Below are positions 13,280-48,013 of a DNA stretch of 64,000 bases, piece by piece. This DNA comes from a virus. The position numbers were made by a program, and so were the translations under genes. Position 1 is the first letter of the stretch. Each line of letters begins with the position of its first letter. The stretch is taken from positions 50,093-114,092 of the IMG/VR virus record IMGVR_UViG_3300030508_000018. The stretch is one strand, 5' to 3'. Below the pieces are notes generated by a model. It saw only the letters and a program-made list of their open reading frames with translations, did not search any database and was not told the origin of the DNA.

Positions 13280-15304
13280 CTAGCTTATGTCTCCTAATAC
13301 TTCATATGGTAATAACAATGCGTCAAAAATGTGATTTGGTCTATTTGTATTAATAAAACTCATCGGTTTAATAAGCACGTCCCGATGTCCTTCATAGGCC
13401 ATTGCTGTTGATAGACTGCGCTGTTGCATCGACATCTTAGTTACTCCAAGCGCTGATCTTGTCCAAGGCTTTGGTAAACTATAATCATTATTATCAGCAG
13501 AAACAATCATAATCCCGTACAACACTACTTCAAGTACTGCTAGATTAACTACCAGTTTTTCATTAACTAAATCGTACAATTCTTGAAGTACATATGCCGG
13601 TGATACATTCTTATCTCGTTCCTGCATTTTATCAACAGAAGATTCCAACATAGCAGCTATGGCGCCACTATGGTCAGACATGTTGATATGTTTTAATGGC
13701 AGTGTTAAAAACGGTTTAGTCCAATCCCAATTTGACATATCAAAATAGTAATCACCACCAGCATCGATTGTCCATCGGTTTTCTCGTATTAGTTTAAGCA
13801 TATCTAAAGTCATGCTAGCTAAACGTCTACCTACTGAAACGTCAATTCCAATTGGATCGGCATCATCTATTTTAATACTAATTTTAGATAACTCAGATAC
13901 TCGACCGATGTTCAAGTCATCAATATTTTTTATTTCTATTACATCTGTTAAGTTCTTGGCGTCGTCTTCTAAGATTATGAATTGTACTTTCTTTCCTTTT
14001 AGATTATCCGCTAGCCAATATGAATTTTCATCAGAAGGATCAATTCTTAAATATTTACGATGTTCACTTTCTAGAATAATCCCTTCTACAGCAGAGCTAC
14101 CGTCAAGATGCTTTAACGATAGTACGTTCTGCGATGATTTTGAAGCAAGGGCAGTGCAACATACTTGACCTATGTTAGTGTCTTTCGGAACAGATAACGA
14201 CAGTTGACCAAAACAAACACTGCAAATACCATACGGATCAGGATGTCTACAATGTATAACTGATCGAAGTTTTAATGTTCTCCCAATTAATTCATGACTG
14301 TCTGCATGAATGGTCTTTAATACACCGTCGTCATCCATGTAGTTTTTTCCAATCAGCTGCTTCAAATCTCCTTGGCGAACAGAGCCTTTTCTATTTTCTG
14401 TTTTTCTTACATTCCAATATACATATTCAGTTGACCCGCAATCACCAGTGTGTAAATTACAAACGATCTGCGACATCAGTTGCAGACGTCTAGAAAAGTA
14501 CTCGGCTTGTTGTAATGGAGTTTTACTAAATGACAGACTCTTTGCAGCTGACCGAGATTCAATTAAAGAATCATGCAACAAACGTATTCCTTGTGCAAAT
14601 CCACGAACAATTGGGTGCCTAAATACATTTGAATCAACATCGGTCAAAACACCTCTAGCACTAACGCATTGTTGCACTTGTCCCATGCTTACTAAATTAG
14701 ACCTAGATGCTTTTGATATAGCGTTATTAGGTAATTCTTTACCGCTCATCAAAACACTCTTTACAATTTTGTGCGTGTCTTCTATATCCTTCTGTCCTGG
14801 ATTTGGGAGTTCTTGAAGTCTGGTATTAGCTTCGCGGATTGTTGGGTTATTTAATACCTCGATGAAGTCTGTTATATCTAGCGATACGACATATTCTTCT
14901 AAACGATAGGATAAATCGTTATACATCGCATTCGTATAACGATAAATGCGTTCGCATAACTTATCCCTAAAATCATACTCAAATTCAATATTTGATTTAT
15001 CCTCAGGATGTGTTTCGAAATGGTTATCATACACGGACCACATTGCATTGCCGAGTAACTCTAAATGAGTATCAGAACCAAGGCGCTTACTATCACCCAA
15101 TATATTGGTAAGATGGTGTTTTGGCAATAAAGGCGTATCTTGAAATTCTCGATGAAAATCCCATGAATATGAACTATAGAGCGTTGCCCTATCATTCGTG
15201 CTAACGATTTCTCCGTTATCGAATACAAGATCAAAAGACCCTGTTAATATATCCCATAACTCTTTAGTTGTATATTTAAGTAACGTTCTTGCTAATATTT
15301 TCAT
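13280..15304 (-). CDS. RNA polymerase beta-prime subunit, C-terminal half
   Basis: 674 residues with AAAAGGAAT upstream. The segment PIVRGFAQGIRLLHDSLIES then QAEYFSRRLQLMSQIV (about 231-281) matches the bridge-helix region of bacterial beta-prime. C289 plus C352, C361 and C364 (HCRHPDPYGICSVCFG) reproduce the second zinc site, and SSQNVLSLKHLDG fits the trigger loop. It corresponds by content and by adjacency to phiKZ gp74, a subunit of the non-virion RNA polymerase that transcribes late genes. The matching N-terminal half is the intron-split gene at 27.5-29.7 kb. Confidence 0.92.
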   Translation of the reverse strand: MKILARTLLKYTTKELWDILTGSFDLVFDNGEIVSTNDRATLYSSYSWDFHREFQDTPLLPKHHLTNILGDSKRLGSDTHLELLGNAMWSVYDNHFETHPEDKSNIEFEYDFRDKLCERIYRYTNAMYNDLSYRLEEYVVSLDITDFIEVLNNPTIREANTRLQELPNPGQKDIEDTHKIVKSVLMSGKELPNNAISKASRSNLVSMGQVQQCVSARGVLTDVDSNVFRHPIVRGFAQGIRLLHDSLIESRSAAKSLSFSKTPLQQAEYFSRRLQLMSQIVCNLHTGDCGSTEYVYWNVRKTENRKGSVRQGDLKQLIGKNYMDDDGVLKTIHADSHELIGRTLKLRSVIHCRHPDPYGICSVCFGQLSLSVPKDTNIGQVCCTALASKSSQNVLSLKHLDGSSAVEGIILESEHRKYLRIDPSDENSYWLADNLKGKKVQFIILEDDAKNLTDVIEIKNIDDLNIGRVSELSKISIKIDDADPIGIDVSVGRRLASMTLDMLKLIRENRWTIDAGGDYYFDMSNWDWTKPFLTLPLKHINMSDHSGAIAAMLESSVDKMQERDKNVSPAYVLQELYDLVNEKLVVNLAVLEVVLYGIMIVSADNNDYSLPKPWTRSALGVTKMSMQQRSLSTAMAYEGHRDVLIKPMSFINTNRPNHIFDALLLPYEVLGDIS

Positions 15305-15334
15305 TAGTATTCCTTTTTAGTATACGTAAATTAC

Positions 15335-17509
15335 TTATTTATACACAACTGTCTGATCACTTTCCCAGTTAGGTTTATAGTCTCTGTATATAAAAGACAA
15401 TCCGCTACATTCTGAAATATGTTTAACGAGACTTAACGGTCTCGCTCCTCCTAATGGTAAAATCTTTCTATCCACTGCCGATTGAATTGCTGTGGGTTTA
15501 TCAGCGCCTAGAATACTATACAAAATTTGTTTATGTGCAGCTGGGTTATTATTACGATCGAGAATATCAGCAGTTACTTTTGCACCAGCGTATGCTGCAT
15601 AGATACGAACCTCAGACTCTCCAAGAGCACGAATTGCTTGTTGTCGAGATGGGTGTGAATGTTTATCAGTATTAGTAACTTGAGACAATACTCCAAAATG
15701 TTGTAGTTTGCCGCTGGACACAGCTGTCCAGTCGTCGCCTGTTTTCTCTAACAAAATCATATACACACCGCCAATGCGTACATTATTTTTAGTAATAACG
15801 CGTTTACCAGAGTTACCAATGTAACTAACAGGGCCGTACACTGGTTTATAAAACATTTCTAATTGTTTAATTATTTCTTCTGATTCTGGTTCGTTTTCAG
15901 GAGGCATATATAGATAAATGCCATCTTTAATAACTGATGCTAGATGATCAATACGACGGCCTTTATACTCACCATCTGTAAACCAGACGTGCATCTTTGG
16001 AGAAACAATATTATAATAACCTAACAAATATTTCCAAGCGCGATCTATGGAATCTGGTTGGGTTAGTTCAAGTGTGCTTAGAACTGTTTTAATCTCATGC
16101 TCGGAATAACTATCCATTGTTGTCTTGTGTTTAGCGGTTGTAGCACCAAAGAACCAAGGATGAATATCATTCTTTATTTTAATAACAACATCACGACTAG
16201 CCGCATTAATGTATTGTTCGTATAATCGACCAATATTCATTCGTGAAATAGTAGAATTAGGGTCCATCACGATATCTGCCCGATTACCGTTTTCATCCAC
16301 AGGCATTTCATCCGGTTCAGCGACGTGTACGATAACTCCCTTACCACCGTGACAATCTGACAATTTAAATCCTGTAATAGGTTCAATGTCATACTCGATT
16401 GTAAACTCCACACGCCAGTCATCTAATTGTGCTTGGCGATACAGTTTAATAATCCGGTGTTGGTCGCTATCTACAACAGATAGTGCTTCAACTACCATTC
16501 TGTGAAATTCAGGAGTAATTCTTAAGTTCTCACGACGATCGCTTTTCAGGCGATTATATTCTTCTAGAATTTCCTTATAAAACTCACGTCTAGCTAAGTC
16601 GTATTTTTCTACTTGTGTTTCCATTCCAGCAACCGCGTCAGGTGCGCTATTTTGACTATCGTGTTGTACGCGAATATCAACAATTCTTCCACCAGCACCA
16701 GCTGCGTATGTGATTTTATCAAATACAAAATCTGGCTCCATAAGAGCACTAACACTTTGTTCAACTACAGCTAATCCTTTATCGTAGCTTCGAAGACACA
16801 TCAGAATACCGTCATATCGAACGCGATCCCCTATATCAGGGAATGGCTTGAAGTTATTTTCATCACCATATAAATTCAAAGCAAAACGTTTACTGCCCCA
16901 TTCAACTGTACGTTGCTCATAAGTCTTAAAAGCAAATCTTCTTAATACATCTCTACTAATAATTACACCGTCTTCAGAAACCGCTGGATGCGTCATGAAA
17001 GCCATATTGCACTGAACACCGTACTTATAACCACCGTTTGGTGTAATTGACGGTGAGTCTAAAAACACGGTTCCTTCTGCTATAGCAGCACCTGGTCGAA
17101 TATTTCTAATTCCATCTTGTTCTTTATATTCAAAACCAAAGTATTGGTGATAAGAACAATACTTAACCAAATTAAATATTCCTACTTCTTTAGTAATTGC
17201 GTTTTCATAAATTACTAAAGTTTGAGGATTCATCTTAATTGAATCAGCACCTATCTTGGGACGATAGCGTGGAATGATCTTGATGATTTCTCCATCGCAC
17301 GGCATTCTCACTTTGAATGTATATTTACCAAACTCACGCTCAACACCAGTTTGACAACGACGCTCTGTAGCGCCATTGACAACAAGTGTCTGCGAAATAT
17401 GACTCGAGAACATTTGCTCTCGACTACTAGAGTTGTGTTGCCTCCATGGGTTTAACCCATTAACTCCCTGAAACTCACGAAAAAGCTGATTAGAAACCTT
17501 AGTGCTCAT
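15335..17509 (-). CDS. RNA polymerase beta subunit, C-terminal half
   Basis: 724 residues from the ATG at 17509 (AAAGGAAAACGTT upstream); a longer frame from 17533 lacks such a signal. SDCHGGKGV and then EMPVDENGNRADIVMDP and SRMNIGRLYEQY (about 390-440) are the hallmark beta segment containing the catalytic-centre lysine region in bacterial beta. It corresponds to phiKZ gp71-73. In phiKZ this gene is interrupted by an intron, as I recall; here it is continuous. It is 30 bases upstream of the beta-prime C-terminal half, so both are likely cotranscribed from the palindromic site at 17612. Confidence 0.92.
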   Translation of the reverse strand: MSTKVSNQLFREFQGVNGLNPWRQHNSSSREQMFSSHISQTLVVNGATERRCQTGVEREFGKYTFKVRMPCDGEIIKIIPRYRPKIGADSIKMNPQTLVIYENAITKEVGIFNLVKYCSYHQYFGFEYKEQDGIRNIRPGAAIAEGTVFLDSPSITPNGGYKYGVQCNMAFMTHPAVSEDGVIISRDVLRRFAFKTYEQRTVEWGSKRFALNLYGDENNFKPFPDIGDRVRYDGILMCLRSYDKGLAVVEQSVSALMEPDFVFDKITYAAGAGGRIVDIRVQHDSQNSAPDAVAGMETQVEKYDLARREFYKEILEEYNRLKSDRRENLRITPEFHRMVVEALSVVDSDQHRIIKLYRQAQLDDWRVEFTIEYDIEPITGFKLSDCHGGKGVIVHVAEPDEMPVDENGNRADIVMDPNSTISRMNIGRLYEQYINAASRDVVIKIKNDIHPWFFGATTAKHKTTMDSYSEHEIKTVLSTLELTQPDSIDRAWKYLLGYYNIVSPKMHVWFTDGEYKGRRIDHLASVIKDGIYLYMPPENEPESEEIIKQLEMFYKPVYGPVSYIGNSGKRVITKNNVRIGGVYMILLEKTGDDWTAVSSGKLQHFGVLSQVTNTDKHSHPSRQQAIRALGESEVRIYAAYAGAKVTADILDRNNNPAAHKQILYSILGADKPTAIQSAVDRKILPLGGARPLSLVKHISECSGLSFIYRDYKPNWESDQTVVYK

Positions 17510-17611
17510 AACGTTTTCCTTTATGTACAACATTGTGTTATAACAACTAAATATAAATTTGGAAAAATAATAATCTTTATTGTTATTTTTATGATGTCAT
17601 TACCACACACT

Positions 17612-29750: not shown

Positions 29751-31613
29751 TTACTGCCAGCGGCTGAAACCACGATTTGCACCAGACGGTGTCGCGTTTT
29801 GATTATAACCACTGCGGAAGATACCGCTCGATTCAGGGGTCAACAAAGTATGACCCGAGAACTGTGAGCGAGCACGTTCGTAATTACCAAGATCCTGATA
29901 CGAGTATACAGGCTTCAGAACCAAACCAGCTTCTTGGCAACCCTTAACTAGTGCGTTAATGAAACCGACTTCAAACGTGACGCGGCGAGCGTAGCCTGTG
30001 AATACCGCGTTATTGCAAATTGATTGGATGATACGTTTCCGTTCATACAAGCGTTTCGGCAGAGGGATATGTGTGCTTGCAAAAGAATCAGACCACAACT
30101 TAATTGCACCTGGGTCTTGTGCGCCGACACAATTCAACACTGCCAAATAATCAATATCGCGAATGTCTGCACGTTCACCACGAGAGTTCGTGTAATGACC
30201 CAGATGGATACGATTGTATTCATCAGTTGCGACACGGCCCTTTGGATCAAAATACTTTACAAAGTTACCATTCGTAAGCTCGTTAGCGGCTTTAAGAATA
30301 GCGATATTTGCTTGGGTATTCCCAGCGGCAGCTGCCGAGAATACTTCATTGAACCAGGTCTGAGCACCGCATTCCGGCACATCCAAGGACACCACAAGAC
30401 CAGGACGAATTGTTGCCTTAACCAACTGCCCGAGATTTTCTGGTTTAAACTTATCGGCATGTGTGTCAATGCGTTGACCAACGCCACTTGGATCATTGCT
30501 AAAGTTAACTTCGATGCCAATAGCACCGATATCACGGAAGTCTACGTCGCCAGAAGGAAAATCCCTTGGACGGAAACCTTGAACCCAAGCGTTGTTTTCG
30601 CCGAGGCCAACGACTGGAACTAGCGCCAATAATTGCGCTGGAATAGTAAGCAGTTCGGTTGATTCCATCGTTGTTGCAACAAACCGAGCAGCGTAACGCT
30701 GAAAAGATTGTTGTGTTGGATCTGGAATACCGTACAAGTTTTGTGGCGCAACGATAGGGTCCCAGAAGATATCCAGGAAACCACCAATTCGCGCGATAGG
30801 TGCTTCACGTCCAGCATCTTGCTGTTGTGTTTGTTGCGACTGCACTGGTGCAGCGGTAAAATCCAATACGATATCACTGCGCAATGGCGCACCGACCGCA
30901 TCTTGTTGTTGTGGCATTGCAAACTGTGTTCGCACTGACAAAGTGGAATCATTCTTAGCGTTTGCAATATTGATATCTTCAAAGTTCTTGCTATTAATTT
31001 CAAGCTCAGAAGTACATGCAAAAATAGCATTTGCAATCAATACGTGCAATGCCGATTTGTCTTCAACGTTAAAGTCCTTAGGAACAACACAAGCACCTGC
31101 GTTACGTGGTGTGTCTTGCGGAAACAACCGCTGAACGTAACCAAGCACAACACCCTTCAAAGTATCGTTGCAGGAATCACCAGCAGTATAGAGAATCTCA
31201 ACGGATTGACCGTTAATCATTTCTGGCTTAGGTGTGCGAATATCCGCAGACGCTTCGAGCAACAACGAGTGATACGCAACACCCAACAATGGGTTCTGCT
31301 TATCACGAACAGCGAGAATCAAAATAGAAATCGACAAGTTTGGTGTTTGTTCTTTTTCAATTGGAACCAAATTGATTTCAAAACTCTTATCGGCTTTTTC
31401 TGTGATCATCTCAGTCATTGCTTTGGTGATCTTGTTCAATGCTTCCGATGCCTGTGTGCGACTGAATGCAGGCCGTGACAACTTGCGCAGATTGGTGAAG
31501 CTGTACCCAGTGCTATCGGCTTTGGTTTGATGATCACGATTAGGTGCAAAACTACCAGTAGGGTTGTTTTGAACTTCTGCACCATTGCCAGTACTTTCGT
31601 CTTTAATAGCCAT
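29751..31613 (-). CDS. chmA: Phage nucleus shell protein chimallin
   Basis: 620 residues with AAAGGAAT upstream. Length, the charged disordered first 40 residues, the central mixed alpha/beta part (SILILAVRDKQNPLLGVAYH; FGLDIFWDP-like GGFLDIFWDPIVAPQNLYGI) and the flexible C-terminus ending SGANRGFSRWQ fit chimallin (phiKZ gp54, 201phi2-1 gp105). Its position beside the beta-prime N-terminal half is the phiKZ order. Chimallin tiles into the single-layer shell that shields phage DNA in the infected cell. It has its own promoter-like site at 31688 and terminator at 29691, consistent with high expression. Confidence 0.85.
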   Translation of the reverse strand: MAIKDESTGNGAEVQNNPTGSFAPNRDHQTKADSTGYSFTNLRKLSRPAFSRTQASEALNKITKAMTEMITEKADKSFEINLVPIEKEQTPNLSISILILAVRDKQNPLLGVAYHSLLLEASADIRTPKPEMINGQSVEILYTAGDSCNDTLKGVVLGYVQRLFPQDTPRNAGACVVPKDFNVEDKSALHVLIANAIFACTSELEINSKNFEDINIANAKNDSTLSVRTQFAMPQQQDAVGAPLRSDIVLDFTAAPVQSQQTQQQDAGREAPIARIGGFLDIFWDPIVAPQNLYGIPDPTQQSFQRYAARFVATTMESTELLTIPAQLLALVPVVGLGENNAWVQGFRPRDFPSGDVDFRDIGAIGIEVNFSNDPSGVGQRIDTHADKFKPENLGQLVKATIRPGLVVSLDVPECGAQTWFNEVFSAAAAGNTQANIAILKAANELTNGNFVKYFDPKGRVATDEYNRIHLGHYTNSRGERADIRDIDYLAVLNCVGAQDPGAIKLWSDSFASTHIPLPKRLYERKRIIQSICNNAVFTGYARRVTFEVGFINALVKGCQEAGLVLKPVYSYQDLGNYERARSQFSGHTLLTPESSGIFRSGYNQNATPSGANRGFSRWQ

Positions 31614-40864: not shown

Positions 40865-41878
40865 TTACAGAACAAGTCCTGTATCGGTATCTGGCTGATC
40901 TACTTTTGTCAAGATGCTTTCACTTGCTAAACGTGCTTTTTGTCGCGCAGCCGCGTCTGCTAGAATTTTTGACAGGTGATTGTATTCACCTTTAATAATT
41001 CCATCACTAGTAACAAAGTGCATTGGAATACGGCCCTTCAGCGTGTCAGTACAGCTTTCTGGGATATAACCATTACATTGATAATCTGGAGTGATTGGGA
41101 ACGGTGTTGTCATTCCTTCTACAGCCAAGGTAGCAACGCTGATAATGTTTCCAATGTTGCTAGGGATATCATCGGTCTTTTCAATCAACGACAACGCGAC
41201 GAGCTGTGGTGTCTTGAACGAAGTCACTTTGTTGAAATTCAACCAATGAGCTAGATCTTTAGAATCCAACTCTAGATTTTCACGGGAGAACAAAACACAT
41301 AAACCAGTGATAATTTCAATGATGCCGCGATCAGCAACAATGCGTGGATCTGGGTCATCGCGTGATGTTACGTTCTTATTTTGGACGTAATACATCACAA
41401 CAGGCAATTTACGCAAGCCTGCAATTGACTCATACGACTTCAATGTCTTCAGTGTGTTTTCAGCAGCAAGAGCCGATTCAATTCCGCCAATAGCAATACA
41501 AACTGTTGGTGTATTTTGTTCTAACAATTCACTCATGATCAATGGCGCAATAACAGAACCAGAGCCACCGCCTGTTGACGACAGAACAATAGTAAGATCA
41601 GCCGATGGAAACTTCTGAAGAATAGCGCGAATGTGACGGCTAATCTCAGCATGATTTTCACGACGAACCTTTCCAGACCCATCAAGTCCTTCAAGTACAT
41701 AGGAGTTATCAGAATTGATATGCTTATGTGAATTAGATTTACTTGCGTCAACATAAACAACTTGCAGCATTGCAAAGCCATCTTCAACCTGACCTTTATG
41801 CTTTTCTAATTGATTACCAATATTCCAACCAGCACCACCACAGCAAATAACAAGTACTTCACCTTTTGGCGTCGACAT
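40865..41878 (-). CDS. phuZ: Phage tubulin PhuZ
   Basis: 337 residues from the ATG at 41878, eight bases after AAAGGA; the ATG at 41884 is also possible. CCGGAGWNIGN (14-24) is the T1 nucleotide loop and STGGGSGS (103-110) is the tubulin signature G-box, here GGGSGS instead of GGGTGSG. PhuZ forms a dynamic GTP-driven spindle that centres the phage nucleus and carries capsids to it. The C-terminal 40 residues (LSKILADAAARQKARLASES then polar) fit the acidic-basic tail used in PhuZ filaments. Confidence 0.9.
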   Translation of the reverse strand: MSTPKGEVLVICCGGAGWNIGNQLEKHKGQVEDGFAMLQVVYVDASKSNSHKHINSDNSYVLEGLDGSGKVRRENHAEISRHIRAILQKFPSADLTIVLSSTGGGSGSVIAPLIMSELLEQNTPTVCIAIGGIESALAAENTLKTLKSYESIAGLRKLPVVMYYVQNKNVTSRDDPDPRIVADRGIIEIITGLCVLFSRENLELDSKDLAHWLNFNKVTSFKTPQLVALSLIEKTDDIPSNIGNIISVATLAVEGMTTPFPITPDYQCNGYIPESCTDTLKGRIPMHFVTSDGIIKGEYNHLSKILADAAARQKARLASESILTKVDQPDTDTGLVL

Positions 41879-41983
41879 TTCCATTTTCCTTTTTTAATTA
41901 ATAACAACACGTTGTGCTTTGCATAGAAGACAGCGATTTTGTAAAATTTGTATCTAATGAGATATTATGATGAATTGTATATA

Positions 41984-42961: not shown

Positions 42962-43927
42962 CTAGCTGTACTTCACCGGTAAATCGTTATACTGCTGAAT
43001 CAGGCTATCGTCTATCCTCCCGATGTTTAAAGACTGACTAGAACAGTCAGTGCCGATCATCCATTTAAGCTGTTCTTCATTTAATGAAACACAACCATAA
43101 GGAAGATGTTTCGTTTCAAATAAAGCCGCACGCAGCTTGTATGGTCCACTCCATCGTACTAATGGTTTCCCTATGTTGTCTGGGTACTCCTGCCAAACAG
43201 CAACTAAACCAATAATAGATTTAGTAATAATCATCCGGCGACCATACGGATCGTAACAATGCCTCTGCTCCCCTCTCTCCAGATAATTGTACGTCTCTCT
43301 ATCTATTTGCAGGTTATCGAAGCTACCGTTCGGAGATTCCCATTCAGGATTATATCTGAACATAATCGGTCCCATGAGTTCGAACTTCTTAATAAACAAC
43401 TGCATCTCAGGGTAACGATTCAGTAAATTCATCGTTAATGAATCCGTGAGGTTATCCTTAACAGTTTTCTGTTCAGTAGTCCTTGGGGTGTGTCGTGTTG
43501 ATCGCATTACTTCAGGCATGTAATGTTGTTTTGTACTGCCGTCGCCAAAATTATCAAAACTAACTGAATCCCCATTTGGTTGTAGGACAGTAACTGTCCG
43601 TGATACTTCGTTTGGCTCTGGTACAAATAACTTCATACCAGCAGGTAGTGATTCTTCTATTGGAGACTTAACAATAGGCGTAGGTTCAGCTTTCTTCTCT
43701 TCCTGTACTTCTTTCTTAACAGGTTGTGGTTTGGCTTCTTCCTTATTAATCATACCGGCTTCGGTTAATACAAACTCCACGAAATGAACCAACCATTTTC
43801 TTGGATAGATGACAAAGACGACTTTTGTCTTTGGCTTAACGATCTTTGTTTGTTTGCTCTTTGATTCTTCTTTCTTTTTGAGTTCCCGCTTATAAGCAGA
43901 ACTCCATACTTTTGAAAAACTGCTCAT
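42962..43927 (-). CDS. Hypothetical protein with internal hydrophobic segment
   Basis: 321 residues with ATAGGAGTG upstream. Residues 1-32 are very basic, 33-57 hydrophobic (VVFVIYPRKWLVHFVEFVLT), 60-90 a charged Lys/Glu linker, and the C-terminal 220 residues fold as an alpha/beta domain (YPEMQLFIKKFELMGPIMFR, MIITKSIIGLVAVWQEYPDN). Possibly membrane-associated. It lies at the end of the small membrane-protein cluster. Function unknown. Confidence 0.6.
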   Translation of the reverse strand: MSSFSKVWSSAYKRELKKKEESKSKQTKIVKPKTKVVFVIYPRKWLVHFVEFVLTEAGMINKEEAKPQPVKKEVQEEKKAEPTPIVKSPIEESLPAGMKLFVPEPNEVSRTVTVLQPNGDSVSFDNFGDGSTKQHYMPEVMRSTRHTPRTTEQKTVKDNLTDSLTMNLLNRYPEMQLFIKKFELMGPIMFRYNPEWESPNGSFDNLQIDRETYNYLERGEQRHCYDPYGRRMIITKSIIGLVAVWQEYPDNIGKPLVRWSGPYKLRAALFETKHLPYGCVSLNEEQLKWMIGTDCSSQSLNIGRIDDSLIQQYNDLPVKYS

Positions 43928-43952
43928 AGCACACTCCTATCTATAAAAAAAA

Positions 43953-43998
43953 TTGTTCGAAGAGAACTGTTAGATTCTCTTCGATTTTATTTATGCCG
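43953..43998. terminator. Hairpin with flanking ATGCCG tag
   Basis: TCGAAGAGAA ... TTCTCTTCGA; leftward it is followed by AACAATTTTTTTTAT, a normal terminator for the small gene ending at 43991, and rightward by TTTATTTATGCCG. The tag overlaps the stop codon of that gene. Confidence 0.65.
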
Positions 43999-44155
43999 CT
44001 GATGCAGCTTTTGATACGGCTTGTGCCGCGAGGTCGGCGGCGTTTGTTTCGGATTCCTTAGTGTTCTTGTCCTTTTCTTCTTGGAGACGCATTTCCGTTA
44101 CCACATACGCACATCCAAGAAACCCAACAAGAACGCCCATGATGAATTTGCCCAT
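43991..44155 (-). CDS. Tiny membrane protein (54 aa)
   Basis: ATG at 44155 after CTTAGGAGT. Residues 2-21 form a transmembrane helix (GKFIMGVLVGFLGCAYVVTE), followed by a charged helix and an Ala-rich end. Part of a run of tiny membrane proteins. Confidence 0.65.
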   Translation of the reverse strand: MGKFIMGVLVGFLGCAYVVTEMRLQEEKDKNTKESETNAADLAAQAVSKAASAA

Positions 44156-44156
44156 G

Positions 44157-44381
44157 TTATAATACTCCTAAGTTAATGTCTTTCGATTCGATTGTTTTTC
44201 CATTAGTCGATTTCTCAACTAATACTTTTACCATCTTTTCACGCTGTGCTATTTTATCAGCTTCGGCTTTAGCTAGTCCTGCTTTGACCAAGACTTCACC
44301 TTTTAGGTAAATCTTCTGTCCAATTTGTGCACCTATTTGTTGGACGATACCGCCTATAAATTTCTCAATTAAAACGTTCAC
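44157..44381 (-). CDS. Small protein in the membrane cluster
   Basis: 74 residues with AAAGGAGAGG upstream. The start (NVLIEKFIGGIVQQIGAQIG) is a weakly amphipathic helix that could lie on a membrane, followed by a charged helix (AEADKIAQREKMVKVLVEKS). It ends one base before the start of the gene at 43991. Unknown function. Confidence 0.6.
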   Translation of the reverse strand: MNVLIEKFIGGIVQQIGAQIGQKIYLKGEVLVKAGLAKAEADKIAQREKMVKVLVEKSTNGKTIESKDINLGVL

Positions 44382-44401
44382 GTCCTCTCCTTTTTATTTA
44401 G

Positions 44402-44456
44402 ATTAGCGATCACGCTGTATCGCTAATCTAAACGACCTGTGAGGGCACAGGTCGTC
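44402..44456. terminator. Two hairpins between small genes
   Basis: TTAGCGAT ... ATCGCTAA, then ACGACCTGTG ... CACAGGTCGT followed rightward by CTTGCCG. Leftward they follow the gene ending at 44474. Confidence 0.6.
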
Positions 44457-44473
44457 TTGCCGATGTTTGTGGG

Positions 44474-44644
44474 TTACGCTGCAGGTGCGTCTGTTGCTGG
44501 CGCTGGTGTAGCGACATCGCCTACTGTTGCGGTTGTGGTCTTGTTGCCAAAGCTGATGTGGTCTTTTGCGAAATAGGCAGCTACACCACCAACAACGATA
44601 ACGCCAAGAGCGATGAGGCCATTCTTCAGATTGATGTTCAGCAT
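44474..44644 (-). CDS. Tiny membrane protein (56 aa)
   Basis: ATG at 44644 with AAAAGGAAAAT upstream; a frame beginning earlier at 44686 lacks a signal. One transmembrane helix (GLIALGVIVVGGVAAYFA) and an Ala/Thr/Pro-rich tail (TVGDVATPAPATDAPAA). Behind the early promoter at 44713. Confidence 0.65.
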   Translation of the reverse strand: MLNINLKNGLIALGVIVVGGVAAYFAKDHISFGNKTTTATVGDVATPAPATDAPAA

Positions 44645-44712
44645 GATATTTTCCTTTTGGGTGAGTAATAAATTTAGATCAAGCAAGAGAATTCTTACTA
44701 AATCTCACAACT

Positions 44713-44738
44713 GTTATATATGTCTGAAATATTCTAGG
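44713..44738 (-). promoter_or_regulatory. Early-type promoter
   Basis: Reverse strand CCTAGAATATTTCAGACA directly followed by TATATAAC; identical core to the sites at 8632, 46862 and 47749. About 70 bases before the tiny gene at 44644. Confidence 0.75.
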
Positions 44739-44811
44739 ATCAAGTTTTCAAACACGCTCCTTACTTACTTTACTACATGTACTTCTACTACAGATTTTTT
44801 ACAATTACGAA

Positions 44812-45102
44812 CTACGCTGGATTGAGGTTTTCGGTAAACGTAACATCACTTACCGAATGACTTTCTTTAATGATTGAGGCTACCTTGCTTTCAAACTCCT
44901 CCATGAGCCTTCTGGCTTCTTGTGTGTGAAACTTGGCCTCCTCCATTGTTGTTTCGTCGTCGCAGTTACGTTCACCGGACAACAGCTCTGCTACTTGTTT
45001 TGCGATCTTGCGATTGCGAAAAGCAGTTGCTACTATTCCAGTTACTGCCAAGGTTACTACGCTGCCAATTGCTACGAGGATTTTTGTTTTTGCGGATGTC
45101 AT
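44812..45102 (-). CDS. Small membrane protein with charged tail
   Basis: 96 residues. Residues 5-27 form a transmembrane helix (TKILVAIGSVVTLAVTGIVA) followed by a basic stop-transfer (FRNRKIAKQ) and a 65-residue acidic helical tail (FHTQEARRLMEEFESKVASI). Presumed inside-facing C-terminus. Unknown function. Confidence 0.65.
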   Translation of the reverse strand: MTSAKTKILVAIGSVVTLAVTGIVATAFRNRKIAKQVAELLSGERNCDDETTMEEAKFHTQEARRLMEEFESKVASIIKESHSVSDVTFTENLNPA

Positions 45103-45171
45103 GGTAATTATCCTGAAATTGAAATAGTTTGAAATACGAGTTAAGTTATTTCTTAAAGAAGTATTGTGATT

Positions 45172-45462
45172 CTACTTCTCTGTGTAGTTCTTTTGTGATC
45201 TTGATGATTTTTTTTCATCGCCATTCAAATAAGCTTCTTGAAGACGATCTTGAAACTTTTGAATATCGGCTTTGCTGAAAGCAAAACCAACTCCATTGTT
45301 TTCCTTCAAGATAATTTTCAGATGAACAATAGACCGCATTGCCGGTATCGTGCTATCTAGCACTTTCTTTTGTTTTTCTTCTTTGTTCTTCGATGAAAAA
45401 AGCTTAGCGACGCCACCTCCTATTGCTAGTACGGCTAAGCCAATAACGGCTTTTATGTTCAT
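45172..45462 (-). CDS. Small membrane protein with charged tail
   Basis: 96 residues from the ATG at 45462 after CAGGAGTGC. A transmembrane segment (IKAVIGLAVLAIGGGVAKLF), then KNKEEKQKK and a helical tail ending in a Ser/Lys/Arg-rich stretch. Same plan as the gene at 44812 but without evident sequence similarity. Confidence 0.65.
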   Translation of the reverse strand: MNIKAVIGLAVLAIGGGVAKLFSSKNKEEKQKKVLDSTIPAMRSIVHLKIILKENNGVGFAFSKADIQKFQDRLQEAYLNGDEKKSSRSQKNYTEK

Positions 45463-45484
45463 GATGCACTCCTGATGTGTTAAG

Positions 45485-45685
45485 TTATAGATTGTGTTCT
45501 GCTTTATAACGACGAAGAGCATCTGGTTCCATATTACGTTCGTATTCTGCTTCTTGTTCCATTCTAGCGCAATAGCTATTTATCTTGGCTTTATGTTCAG
45601 ACTCTTTTTTCATTTCAAAATACTTAAGAATAAGAACACCACCAGCAATACTAACTACTGCTAATGTTACATGAACTCTCCACAT
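45485..45685 (-). CDS. Small membrane protein
   Basis: 66 residues from the ATG at 45685, after CAGGAGAAT. One transmembrane helix (WRVHVTLAVVSIAGGVLILK), then a highly charged helix (YCARMEQEAEYERNMEPDAL). Same cluster and plan as its neighbours. Confidence 0.65.
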   Translation of the reverse strand: MWRVHVTLAVVSIAGGVLILKYFEMKKESEHKAKINSYCARMEQEAEYERNMEPDALRRYKAEHNL

Positions 45686-45722
45686 GGCATTCTCCTGATT
45701 TAAATGTAAATAATAAAAAAGA

Positions 45723-45760
45723 CCATTAACAATAAATAAAACCAACCTTATTGTTAATGG
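45723..45760 (-). terminator. Hairpin with T run
   Basis: CCATTAACAATA ... TATTGTTAATGG followed leftward by TCTTTTTT. It ends the transcript of the gene at 45837. Just upstream, GAGGGC ... GCCCTC (45781-45822) makes a second stem. Confidence 0.7.
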
Positions 45761-45836
45761 CTGGAAATCGTTTTATGCGTGAGGGCTTTCAAAAGGAGGT
45801 TATATGTCCTAATGGCCCTCGGTAAGCACGGATAGA

Positions 45837-46439
45837 TCAGGAAGTTAAGTTCCTGATTTCAGCAAGGGCCTTCCGGCCAATGTTTGCTATCCGCATCAGA
45901 TCGTTGTCGCTCATCTTCGACAACATATCCACTGTTACCTTCCCGCCAAGTTCGTCGGTAAGATTATTCTTGACTCTTACTGATAACTTAGAGTCTTGAA
46001 TCAGTGTTGTATTAGGCACCCGCGTTAAAACGGCAGCGCTCTCTGGTACTATAAATCCACGATGTTGAAACACCGCTACTTTATGAGTACCGCCATCAGC
46101 CGTAGCTGCCTCAGAGCTTACGCGAAGCGTAAAGGCATACATCGGTATGATACCGACCTTGATTAACGCATCTTCCAGCGCTGACATCAGGTAAGGCGCA
46201 CCTCCAATCATTGCGGAGGTAATGGGTGGTTCACCCAGTGCTCTTGCGTATTCTCTATGCGCGACAGCTATATCAGCAATGCTGGTCGCTGCCTCACGAA
46301 TGAAAACTGATGTCGGCATACTGTCAAAGGTCAACAGCGCTATGAGTTGAAGCAGGAACCCACCAGTAACATCAACCAAACCAGCGAGCAGCTGGTCCTT
46401 TGTTGCTTTGTGTTGCGTTAAATTCAAGATTGCATTCAT
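45837..46439 (-). CDS. Two-domain protein ending in an RNAP alpha-CTD-like fold
   Basis: 200 residues. The first 145 residues (NLTQHKATKDQLLAGLVDV; DIAVAHREYARALGEPPITS; MIGGAPYLMSALEDALIKVG; AFTLRVSSEA) follow a family of bacterial hypothetical proteins I have seen in mobile elements but cannot name. The last 50 residues (KLSVRVKNNLTDE ... VTVDMLSKMSDNDLMRIANI then GRKALAEIRNL) match the helix-hairpin-helix pattern of the RNA polymerase alpha C-terminal domain (LSVRTxNCLKxxGIxTVxDLxxxSxxDLLxIxNxGxKSLxEI). It may act on host or phage transcription. A variant palindromic element lies upstream at 46495. Confidence 0.65.
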   Translation of the reverse strand: MNAILNLTQHKATKDQLLAGLVDVTGGFLLQLIALLTFDSMPTSVFIREAATSIADIAVAHREYARALGEPPITSAMIGGAPYLMSALEDALIKVGIIPMYAFTLRVSSEAATADGGTHKVAVFQHRGFIVPESAAVLTRVPNTTLIQDSKLSVRVKNNLTDELGGKVTVDMLSKMSDNDLMRIANIGRKALAEIRNLTS

Positions 46440-46494
46440 TTTGTTTCTCCAGTATAAAAGGGTGTGGGTTTTTAAAGCTACTCGTGTGAGGGCA

Positions 46495-46519
46495 GTGGTA
46501 TATCACTACGCATAGTGAC
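46495..46519 (-). promoter_or_regulatory. Variant palindromic promoter-like element
   Basis: Reverse strand CACTATGCGTAGTGATATAC, with the TAGTGATATA half conserved from the sites at 17612 and 31688. It is 56 bases before the gene at 46439. Confidence 0.45.
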
Positions 46520-46640
46520 CCGTTTCTCTGACCCTCAGGCTAATAGCCTAGTGGATAATAATCCAGGATGTTCTTGAAATAAGTTTTGTTGCGTTTTACG
46601 AGGCCGCCGCCTAGATACACATTGGATTCCCTTCAAGAGC

Positions 46641-46680
46641 GTTAAGAAGTAAGCAAGCTCCCGATTGCTTACTTCTTAAC
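46641..46680 (-). terminator. Very strong hairpin
   Basis: GTTAAGAAGTAAGCAA pairs perfectly over 16 bp with TTGCTTACTTCTTAAC around an eight-base loop. It follows the tiny gene ending at 46704. Confidence 0.75.
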
Positions 46681-46703
46681 TCATTATCAGTTAGTGCAAA
46701 CCG

Positions 46704-46838
46704 TTAAGGCTTAGGCTGCTTTCGCTTTGCGTTTGCCGGTCCAAATCTATCTCGCCCCTGCATACGACAGTATTGTGCTTTCGCTGGCAATATCAAATCT
46801 ATATACATTGGTGACAGTTTGTTATAGTGTCTTTCCAT
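46704..46838 (-). CDS. Tiny basic protein (44 aa)
   Basis: ATG at 46838 gives MERHYNKLSPMYIDLILPAK and a very basic end (GPANAKRKQPKP). GGAGGTGAG lies 17 bases upstream, farther than usual, so the start is uncertain; an ATG ten codons in is also possible. It follows the early promoter at 46862 directly and precedes a strong hairpin, which supports a real transcript. Confidence 0.5.
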   Translation of the reverse strand: MERHYNKLSPMYIDLILPAKAQYCRMQGRDRFGPANAKRKQPKP

Positions 46839-46861
46839 ATAACTACTAAATCTCACCTCCA

Positions 46862-46886
46862 GTATATATGTCTGAAATATTATAGG
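46862..46886 (-). promoter_or_regulatory. Early-type promoter
   Basis: Reverse strand CCTATAATATTTCAGACATA then TATAC; one change from the copies at 44713 and 47749. It overlaps the ribosome binding site region of the tiny basic gene. Confidence 0.7.
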
Positions 46887-46922
46887 ATCAAGTTTTTCTC
46901 AGACATATACACTGGTTGTTTC

Positions 46923-47405
46923 TTAGTACCTATTCCAATTAGCGTCCCATTCGATATCGCTTCGAAGGTGACGAAGTTTAGAATCCATCGACGACTTGAT
47001 TTCTCGAGTAGCGTCTCTGACAGCGTTGTTCACTTCTGCCTTCATCGCATTGATGATCTCAGCCTTCATTTCCTCGACTGCCGCACGTTCGTTGAAACGA
47101 GTAGCGTATTCTGGATCAGCCGCCATACGTGCAATATGTAAATCATGCTCTTGTTTACGCGCTTCCCTAGCTGCTTTGCAATCTTCTGCATTCTTACGAT
47201 TACGCAAGATGATAATCTTTGCGGCATCAGATACAAACGCAATGTCCTTCAGACCGATTTCAACAGTATATACTTCAGTATTTAGCGCATCTTCGGCAGC
47301 ACGTATTTCCTCACCTCTCTTGCGTTCTTGTATTTTACTGTAGACACCAGCACTTACTAATGCTGTAAGTCCGGTTACCAGCAAACCAGCAATGATCTTG
47401 TTCAT
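46923..47405 (-). CDS. Membrane-anchored coiled-coil protein
   Basis: 160 residues. An N-terminal transmembrane helix (KIIAGLLVTGLTALVSAGVY) and then about 130 residues of strongly charged helix (GEEIRAAEDALNTEVYTVEI, RKNAEDCKAAREARKQEHDL, EMKAEIINAMKAEVNNAVRD). A long cytoplasmic or periplasmic coiled coil is likely. The biggest member of the membrane cluster. Confidence 0.65.
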   Translation of the reverse strand: MNKIIAGLLVTGLTALVSAGVYSKIQERKRGEEIRAAEDALNTEVYTVEIGLKDIAFVSDAAKIIILRNRKNAEDCKAAREARKQEHDLHIARMAADPEYATRFNERAAVEEMKAEIINAMKAEVNNAVRDATREIKSSMDSKLRHLRSDIEWDANWNRY

Positions 47406-47440
47406 TTTTTTATTCTCCAGTATTGAAATAGATTTAAATC

Positions 47441-47560
47441 TTACTGACGCCAGTATGCAGCGTCACCTTGTTGTTTGTTTGCGATTGTCCTGTTTATATA
47501 CTCGATTGCGTAATGCGCAGCAATCGCTGACACAACACAGATTACAATACTCTTAATCAT
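47441..47560 (-). CDS. Tiny membrane protein (39 aa)
   Basis: ATG at 47560 after CTAAGGAGTCAG. The first 20 residues (IKSIVICVVSAIAAHYAIEY) are one transmembrane helix; the rest is short and polar (NRTIANKQQGDAAYWRQ). Confidence 0.6.
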   Translation of the reverse strand: MIKSIVICVVSAIAAHYAIEYINRTIANKQQGDAAYWRQ

Positions 47561-47575
47561 GACTGACTCCTTAGC

Positions 47576-47704
47576 TTAGAAACGATGACAGGATTCGTGG
47601 ATTGTGAAAAGCAGATTACCGATGGATGAACCGATAATCATTCCACCGATAACATTGAACATGAGTTCGTATTCAGTAATGACATTTTTCAATTTCGTAA
47701 ACAT
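47576..47704 (-). CDS. Tiny membrane protein (42 aa)
   Basis: ATG at 47704, seven bases after AAGGGG. Residues about 14-36 (LMFNVIGGMIIGSSIGNLLF) form one transmembrane helix with a GxxxG-like pattern. Its ribosome binding site is partly inside the leader hairpin at 47714. Confidence 0.6.
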   Translation of the reverse strand: MFTKLKNVITEYELMFNVIGGMIIGSSIGNLLFTIHESCHRF

Positions 47705-47713
47705 AATTTAACC

Positions 47714-47750
47714 CCTTAGGCAAGATACTTCTTTACTATCTCGCCTAAGG
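47714..47750 (-). promoter_or_regulatory. Leader hairpin occluding the ribosome binding site
   Basis: CCTTAGGC ... GCCTAAGG. On the reverse strand the 3' arm contains AAGG of the AAGGGG ribosome binding site for the gene at 47704, and the hairpin begins just after the early promoter at 47749. It may limit translation or stabilise the short message. Confidence 0.5.
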
Positions 47751-47774
47751 TATATATGTCTGAAATATTCTAGG
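47749..47774 (-). promoter_or_regulatory. Early-type promoter
   Basis: Reverse strand CCTAGAATATTTCAGACA followed by TATATACC. It begins just after the stop of the gene at 47782 and serves the two tiny membrane genes further left. Confidence 0.75.
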
Positions 47775-47781
47775 ATACTAA

Positions 47782-47952
47782 TCAGCTTCTAGCGGCAATG
47801 ATTGCTTTTGTAACCTTCCATCCAATCGCGTATCCTACAACAGCAGATACAGATAAAATACAAAGAAAGACTGGTATACTCATACCTTTCTTTTCTTCAT
47901 ATTCTTTTACTTCTGCGTCAGCTTGTTCCGGTGTTATGTGTACGTTTTTCAT
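47782..47952 (-). CDS. Tiny membrane protein (56 aa)
   Basis: ATG at 47952 after GGAGAATGTC. The N-terminal 25 residues are charged (NVHITPEQADAEVKEYEEKK), followed by a transmembrane helix (SIPVFLCILSVSAVVGYAIG) and a short basic end. Orientation is the reverse of the other cluster members, which have the helix first. Confidence 0.6.
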   Translation of the reverse strand: MKNVHITPEQADAEVKEYEEKKGMSIPVFLCILSVSAVVGYAIGWKVTKAIIAARS

Positions 47953-48013
47953 GACATTCTCCATTGATTAAAAAAGTGTTTTGAGTAACGATATTTCTAT
48001 CAAGACTCGCAAC

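Follow-up and report, generated by a model that had tools for sequence, protein, structure and literature searches.

Csx20 is a ring nuclease specific for cA4 with a predicted CARF-like fold, and was found in only four of ~28,000 phage genomes surveyed (PMC12409355). Removal of cA4 by a phage-encoded enzyme is exemplified by the viral ring nuclease AcrIII-1/Crn2 (DUF1874). Csx15, which is also CARF-like, binds cA4 with slow or no cleavage (PMC13148439). In the archaeal host regulator Csa3, a CARF domain is combined with a winged helix-turn-helix. Anti-CRISPR functions of this kind bear on nucleus-forming phages, whose DNA is protected from CRISPR systems that target DNA. Within this group, Serratia phage PCH45 escapes type I systems but is sensitive to those of type III (review PMC12908238).

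Here we analyzed 64,000 nucleotides (the window) from the 114-kb virus record IMGVR_UViG_3300030508_000018. A gene on its minus strand (45837-46439) encodes a 200-aa protein in which a Csx20-like domain, a linker and a domain resembling the C-terminal domain of the RNA polymerase alpha subunit (alpha-CTD) follow one another. The sequence similarities show that the N-terminal domain is homologous to Csx20 over its full length, with H, Q, R, E, F and H positions in common and a probable CARF-like fold. It differs from Csx20 in being phage-borne, in belonging to a family of phages and plasmids, and in being fused to an alpha-CTD. The role we propose resembles that of AcrIII-1, although the protein has no sequence match to DUF1874 in Pfam (searched at E up to 10). 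Similar to Csa3, it joins a cOA-binding type of domain to a DNA-binding type, whereas the DNA-binding fold is a different one.

The fusion gene and its phage context

The window encodes chimallin, the nuclear shell protein (29751-31613; PHROG 4795, E = 2.5e-90), a PhuZ tubulin (40865-41884; PHROG 4733, E = 1.2e-76) and two phage subunits of a multisubunit RNA polymerase of the beta/beta' type (13280-17533; PHROG 3015 and 3295), all on the minus strand, while a terminase and a tail sheath are also encoded in the record. For chimallin and RNA polymerase, the closest phage is Burkholderia phage FLC9 (44% and 58%, respectively). These genes and this likeness indicate that the record probably represents part of the genome of a nucleus-forming jumbo phage. 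No alpha-CTD-like or Csx20-like gene was detected in 11 cultured phages, namely PhiEaH1 and 10 phages that had matched the nuclear shell protein; one of the searches, A1, had no positive control.

The fusion gene starts with ATG, with a Shine-Dalgarno sequence, GGAG, 8-11 nt 5' of it (46447-46450, minus strand). An identical copy of the 200-aa sequence is present on a second IMG/VR contig (5862 of 5862 bp identical); this contig comes from the same population and thus provides no independent evidence for the fusion. The joining of a Csx20-like domain to an alpha-CTD was therefore seen in one phage population only, and the lack of a second, independent genome with it counts against our preferred explanation as far as the role of the alpha-CTD is concerned. 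At 47.8% G+C, the gene ranks among the highest 0.3% of windows of its size (mean 37.7%), a pattern expected of a recent acquisition.

A conserved, AT-rich promoter-like motif, CTATAATATTTCAGACATATA (46865-46885, minus strand; consensus CTAGAATATTTCAGACATATA), is found ~425 nt upstream of the fusion gene. All seven copies in the 114-kb record are on the minus strand (8656, 44737, 46885, 47773 and 48120 in the window, and G000:27538 and 38643), whereas a control pattern gave none and mononucleotide shuffles of the window gave 0.4 matches at 5 mismatches. Early promoters of phiKZ-type phages are extended, AT-rich and strongly conserved (PMC5312081), which makes early expression of the fusion gene plausible. 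Several copies of the motif have a GTGAGATT-like stretch immediately 3', and most precede small ORFs. A 421-nt non-coding leader (46440-46860, minus strand) precedes the gene and contains a hairpin with a 16-bp stem at about 46641-46681. Its predicted folding is more stable than that of shuffled sequences (z-score -2.97; 0 of 100 shuffles equally stable). No Rfam family or tRNA was found in it, and no DNA relatives of it in the phage collection. The surrounding minus-strand region, 43000-48000, is a cluster of short ORFs, several with an initial hydrophobic stretch resembling a single membrane anchor, and is possibly an accessory region.

The Csx20-like domain and its family

The initial annotation regarded the partner of the alpha-CTD as an unknown domain. 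It can be identified: residues 1-132 (46044-46439, minus strand) are Csx20-like, and so related to CARF and ring nuclease proteins. The family to which this domain belongs carries the pattern NLTQHxATxEQ ... LLTF ... AMIGGAPYLM ... YAFSxRxSxE ... DGxxxK ... FxHxGF, and H10, Q16, R106, E110, K120, F124 and H126 are its conserved residues. Csx20 (NF040559) was matched by all 33 aligned family members (best E = 4.4e-10) and was the sole NCBIfam family with matches in more than one of them; the remaining matches were RpoA, on the alpha-CTD of the window protein itself, and one weak match in a single member. Scores of 22 bits for the window protein and ~35 bits for the best of five singly scanned members lie below the curated cut-off of 70 bits, and we therefore call the domain Csx20-like, a distant relative rather than Csx20 itself. 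Two further comparisons gave the same assignment. The PADLOC models for Csx20 matched all six family members tested, and alignment of the family profile with 21 bona fide Csx20 proteins, gathered from whole genomes, gave an hhalign probability of 97.5% (E = 5e-12) across residues 1-132, compared with less than 1% for each of ten column-permuted controls and one reversed control. In the one reference neighborhood that was read (L067), a gene beside Csx20 resembles a CARF-type effector as judged by eye, not by profile.

Six of the conserved residues (H10, Q16, R106, E110, F124 and H126) align with invariant or nearly invariant positions of Csx20. The glycine-rich motif, on the other hand, is QGDFG in Csx20 and IGGAP in this family, so that the chemistry or the substrate may differ from that of Csx20. 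Residues 1-132 were modelled confidently by AF2 (pLDDT ~96). Foldseek comparison of the full model with the PDB yielded no significant match; second in rank was cA4-bound Cam1, which is a CARF protein (E = 0.06), and support for CARF likeness at the level of the fold is thus only suggestive. Matches to Hsp70 and UvrC in that search were of low confidence and were set aside. The family profile had no match among PDB sequences. A structure search of BFVD retrieved uncharacterized viral proteins only, the best being a standalone relative; the similarity to PhiEaH1 that it suggested gained no support from profile searches of the PhiEaH1 genome.

Members of the family travel on mobile elements. In IMG/VR, a first scan found 52 loci and a scan with an alignment query at least 135, and members are also carried by plasmids and by Rhodothermus phage RM378, among others. 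They are rare in cellular genomes: a single 8-residue pattern, scanned against the cellular collection, gave 5 loci, and among 274 relatives of one host a family member was present in 1. Two cellular loci checked by eye lie on a phage-like and a plasmid-like contig. True Csx20, by comparison, scored above its cut-off in 39 genomes out of 299 from another group. Unlike Csx20, the fusion gene resides in a phage record and not in a type III CRISPR locus. No DNA-level relatives were found in plasmids or phages.

Nearly all relatives are standalone proteins of about 110-160 aa, and are labelled "hypothetical protein" or are without annotation in annotated records. An alpha-CTD was found in none of the other ~130 relatives sampled, which suggests that the core function of the family is independent of DNA binding. 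Only one of them has another long tail, and this too lacks an alpha-CTD: a relative at L005:5001-5726 carries a different C-terminal extension of 96 residues, of unassigned kind. An unannotated relative also lies close to the record end in Pasteurella phage Pm86 (L056:288-497).

The alpha-CTD-like domain

That the C-terminus is alpha-CTD-like, as initially annotated, is borne out. Residues 147-197 (45849-46001, minus strand) match Pfam RNA_pol_A_CTD (PF03118) with 31.1 bits (E = 1.9e-7), above the gathering cut-off of 23.8 bits, and also match NCBIfam RpoA models (down to 4e-6). The best ten matches of the fusion protein among solved structures are all RpoA (lowest E = 0.008), and matches to unrelated helix-hairpin-helix families were absent at E up to 10. 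In the AF2 model of the whole protein, helices at 150-164, 170-175 and 178-199 follow a partly disordered linker (residues 133-146; 46002-46043, minus strand). Residues 133-139 of the linker are helical, and pLDDT falls below 50 at residues 143-152. The pLDDT of the alpha-CTD-like domain was about 76-86 in this full-length model and poor, 69.8, when the domain was modelled alone.

We aligned the domain with RpoA of E. coli MG1655, and took the residues that form the 265 and sigma-contact determinants as established for E. coli alpha. Six of the eight residues of the 265 determinant are the same as in E. coli: R155, N158, N186, G188, K190 and E194 correspond to the DNA-contact residues R265, N268, N294, G296, K298 and E302, and the two changes are C269N and S299A. 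Most of the DNA-binding determinant of bacterial alpha-CTD is thus present. Unlike RpoA, the phage protein has the Csx20-like domain in place of the alpha-NTD, contains a 2-residue insertion, has a lysine at the position of E261, which contacts sigma in E. coli, and lacks the C-terminal tail (the region of E. coli 315-318).

The closest alpha-CTD-like domains found are those of the Caulobacter jumbo phage proteins CcrColossus gp133 (~42% identity) and CcrPW gp140 (~38%), which have the same 2-residue insertion. Since this insertion is shared, the domain may move among phages rather than being newly derived from a host rpoA. The architecture of the Caulobacter proteins is different: the alpha-CTD-like domain is N-terminal (L057:2968-3822 and L113:1468-2322), and the rest of each protein is weakly similar to class II aminoacyl-tRNA synthetases. 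A second alpha-CTD-type frame (50.7 bits) is present in the same record outside the window (G000:C1:38135-38326, minus strand; L066:8135-8326). It follows a 100-aa ORF, with an in-frame TAA at the start of the alpha-CTD-type frame dividing the two, and the same promoter-like motif lies upstream (G000:38643-38663).

Proposed role and alternative readings

Our combined findings make it probable that this is a phage-borne, Csx20-like protein that removes cOA and carries an alpha-CTD-like tether to DNA or polymerase, which would make it a candidate anti-CRISPR against type III systems. The N-terminal domain would bind and cleave cyclic oligoadenylate, probably cA4, and this removal would dampen type III signaling during infection. 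The alpha-CTD-like domain would hold the protein on DNA or on a transcription complex and so concentrate the enzyme where transcripts trigger Cas10. The homologies of the two domains, the conservation of the shared residues and the nucleus-forming phage context are shown by the analyses above; cleavage rather than binding alone, cA4 as the substrate and the anti-CRISPR role are inferred, and what the alpha-CTD-like domain binds is the part of this proposal that we put forward with the least confidence. A tether on DNA or host RNAP, added to a domain that binds or cleaves cOA, is possible. Since nucleus-forming phages can be susceptible to type III systems, as PCH45 is, an anti-type-III gene fits a phage of this kind, and may be an answer to this weakness.

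A protein of the same layout could instead be a cOA-responsive regulator of transcription, with the N-terminal domain sensing cA4 and the alpha-CTD binding a promoter or polymerase, such that transcription shifts when type III fires. The arrangement of sensor and DNA-binding domain is analogous to that of Csa3, the DNA-contact residues are largely retained and the second alpha-CTD-type frame lies behind the same promoter-like motif. However, the closest characterized relative, Csx20, is an enzyme rather than a sensor, and the ~130 sampled relatives do without an alpha-CTD, and we consider a regulator unlikely. It is also improbable that the N-terminal domain acts, as Csx15 or Acb2 do, as a sponge that holds cyclic nucleotides but leaves them uncut. 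The slow or absent cleavage by Csx15 and the altered QGDFG motif would be in line with a sponge, whereas both histidines and the arginine in common with Csx20 are retained, Csx15 was not seen in phages and sponging is thought to be a poor countermeasure when type III systems raise cOA to high levels (PMC13148439).

There is likewise a small chance that the fusion is neutral or accidental, the Csx20-like domain being active and the alpha-CTD tail dispensable. Its restriction to one phage population would be consistent with this, yet the frame is open, conservation reaches the level of Pfam, the DNA-contact residues are intact and the same type of alpha-CTD, with the same insertion, recurs in the Caulobacter jumbo phages. 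Finally, the initial annotation had the protein blocking or redirecting host transcription or guiding the phage polymerase. We know of no alpha subunit in the RNA polymerases of phiKZ-type phages. These polymerases are of the beta/beta' type and operate without host RNAP (PMC5312081), which makes guidance of the phage polymerase less likely; and with a main domain homologous to Csx20, an effect on host transcription is not the interpretation we favor. Thus, while the alpha-CTD-like domain is genuine, a takeover, whether by competition with host RNAP alpha, by its redirection or by guidance of the phage enzyme, is very unlikely, as it leaves the conserved 130-residue N-terminal domain without explanation, host RNAP is dispensable for phiKZ-type phages (PMC5312081), and E261 and the 315-318 region are lost. 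A targeted anti-CRISPR is the more likely identity of the protein.

Our preferred reading, a tethered cOA-removing protein, suggests that an anti-CRISPR enzyme can be directed to sites of transcription. More tentatively, a protein that senses or degrades cOA and is docked by its alpha-CTD to transcribing DNA or polymerase might be either a spatially targeted anti-CRISPR or a regulator that rewires transcription in response to type III, with a parent family that would form a large, unrecognized class of ring nucleases in phages and plasmids. Given the at least 135 IMG/VR loci, and that no relevant paper within the library searched prints the signature motifs, the family may have been overlooked, and may be a common class of anti-type-III-CRISPR proteins. 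In one Helicobacteraceae MAG (L060, L067), a family member on a plasmid-like contig coexists with a true Csx20 scoring 131.7 bits, and this pair offers a natural test of the host and mobile-element versions.
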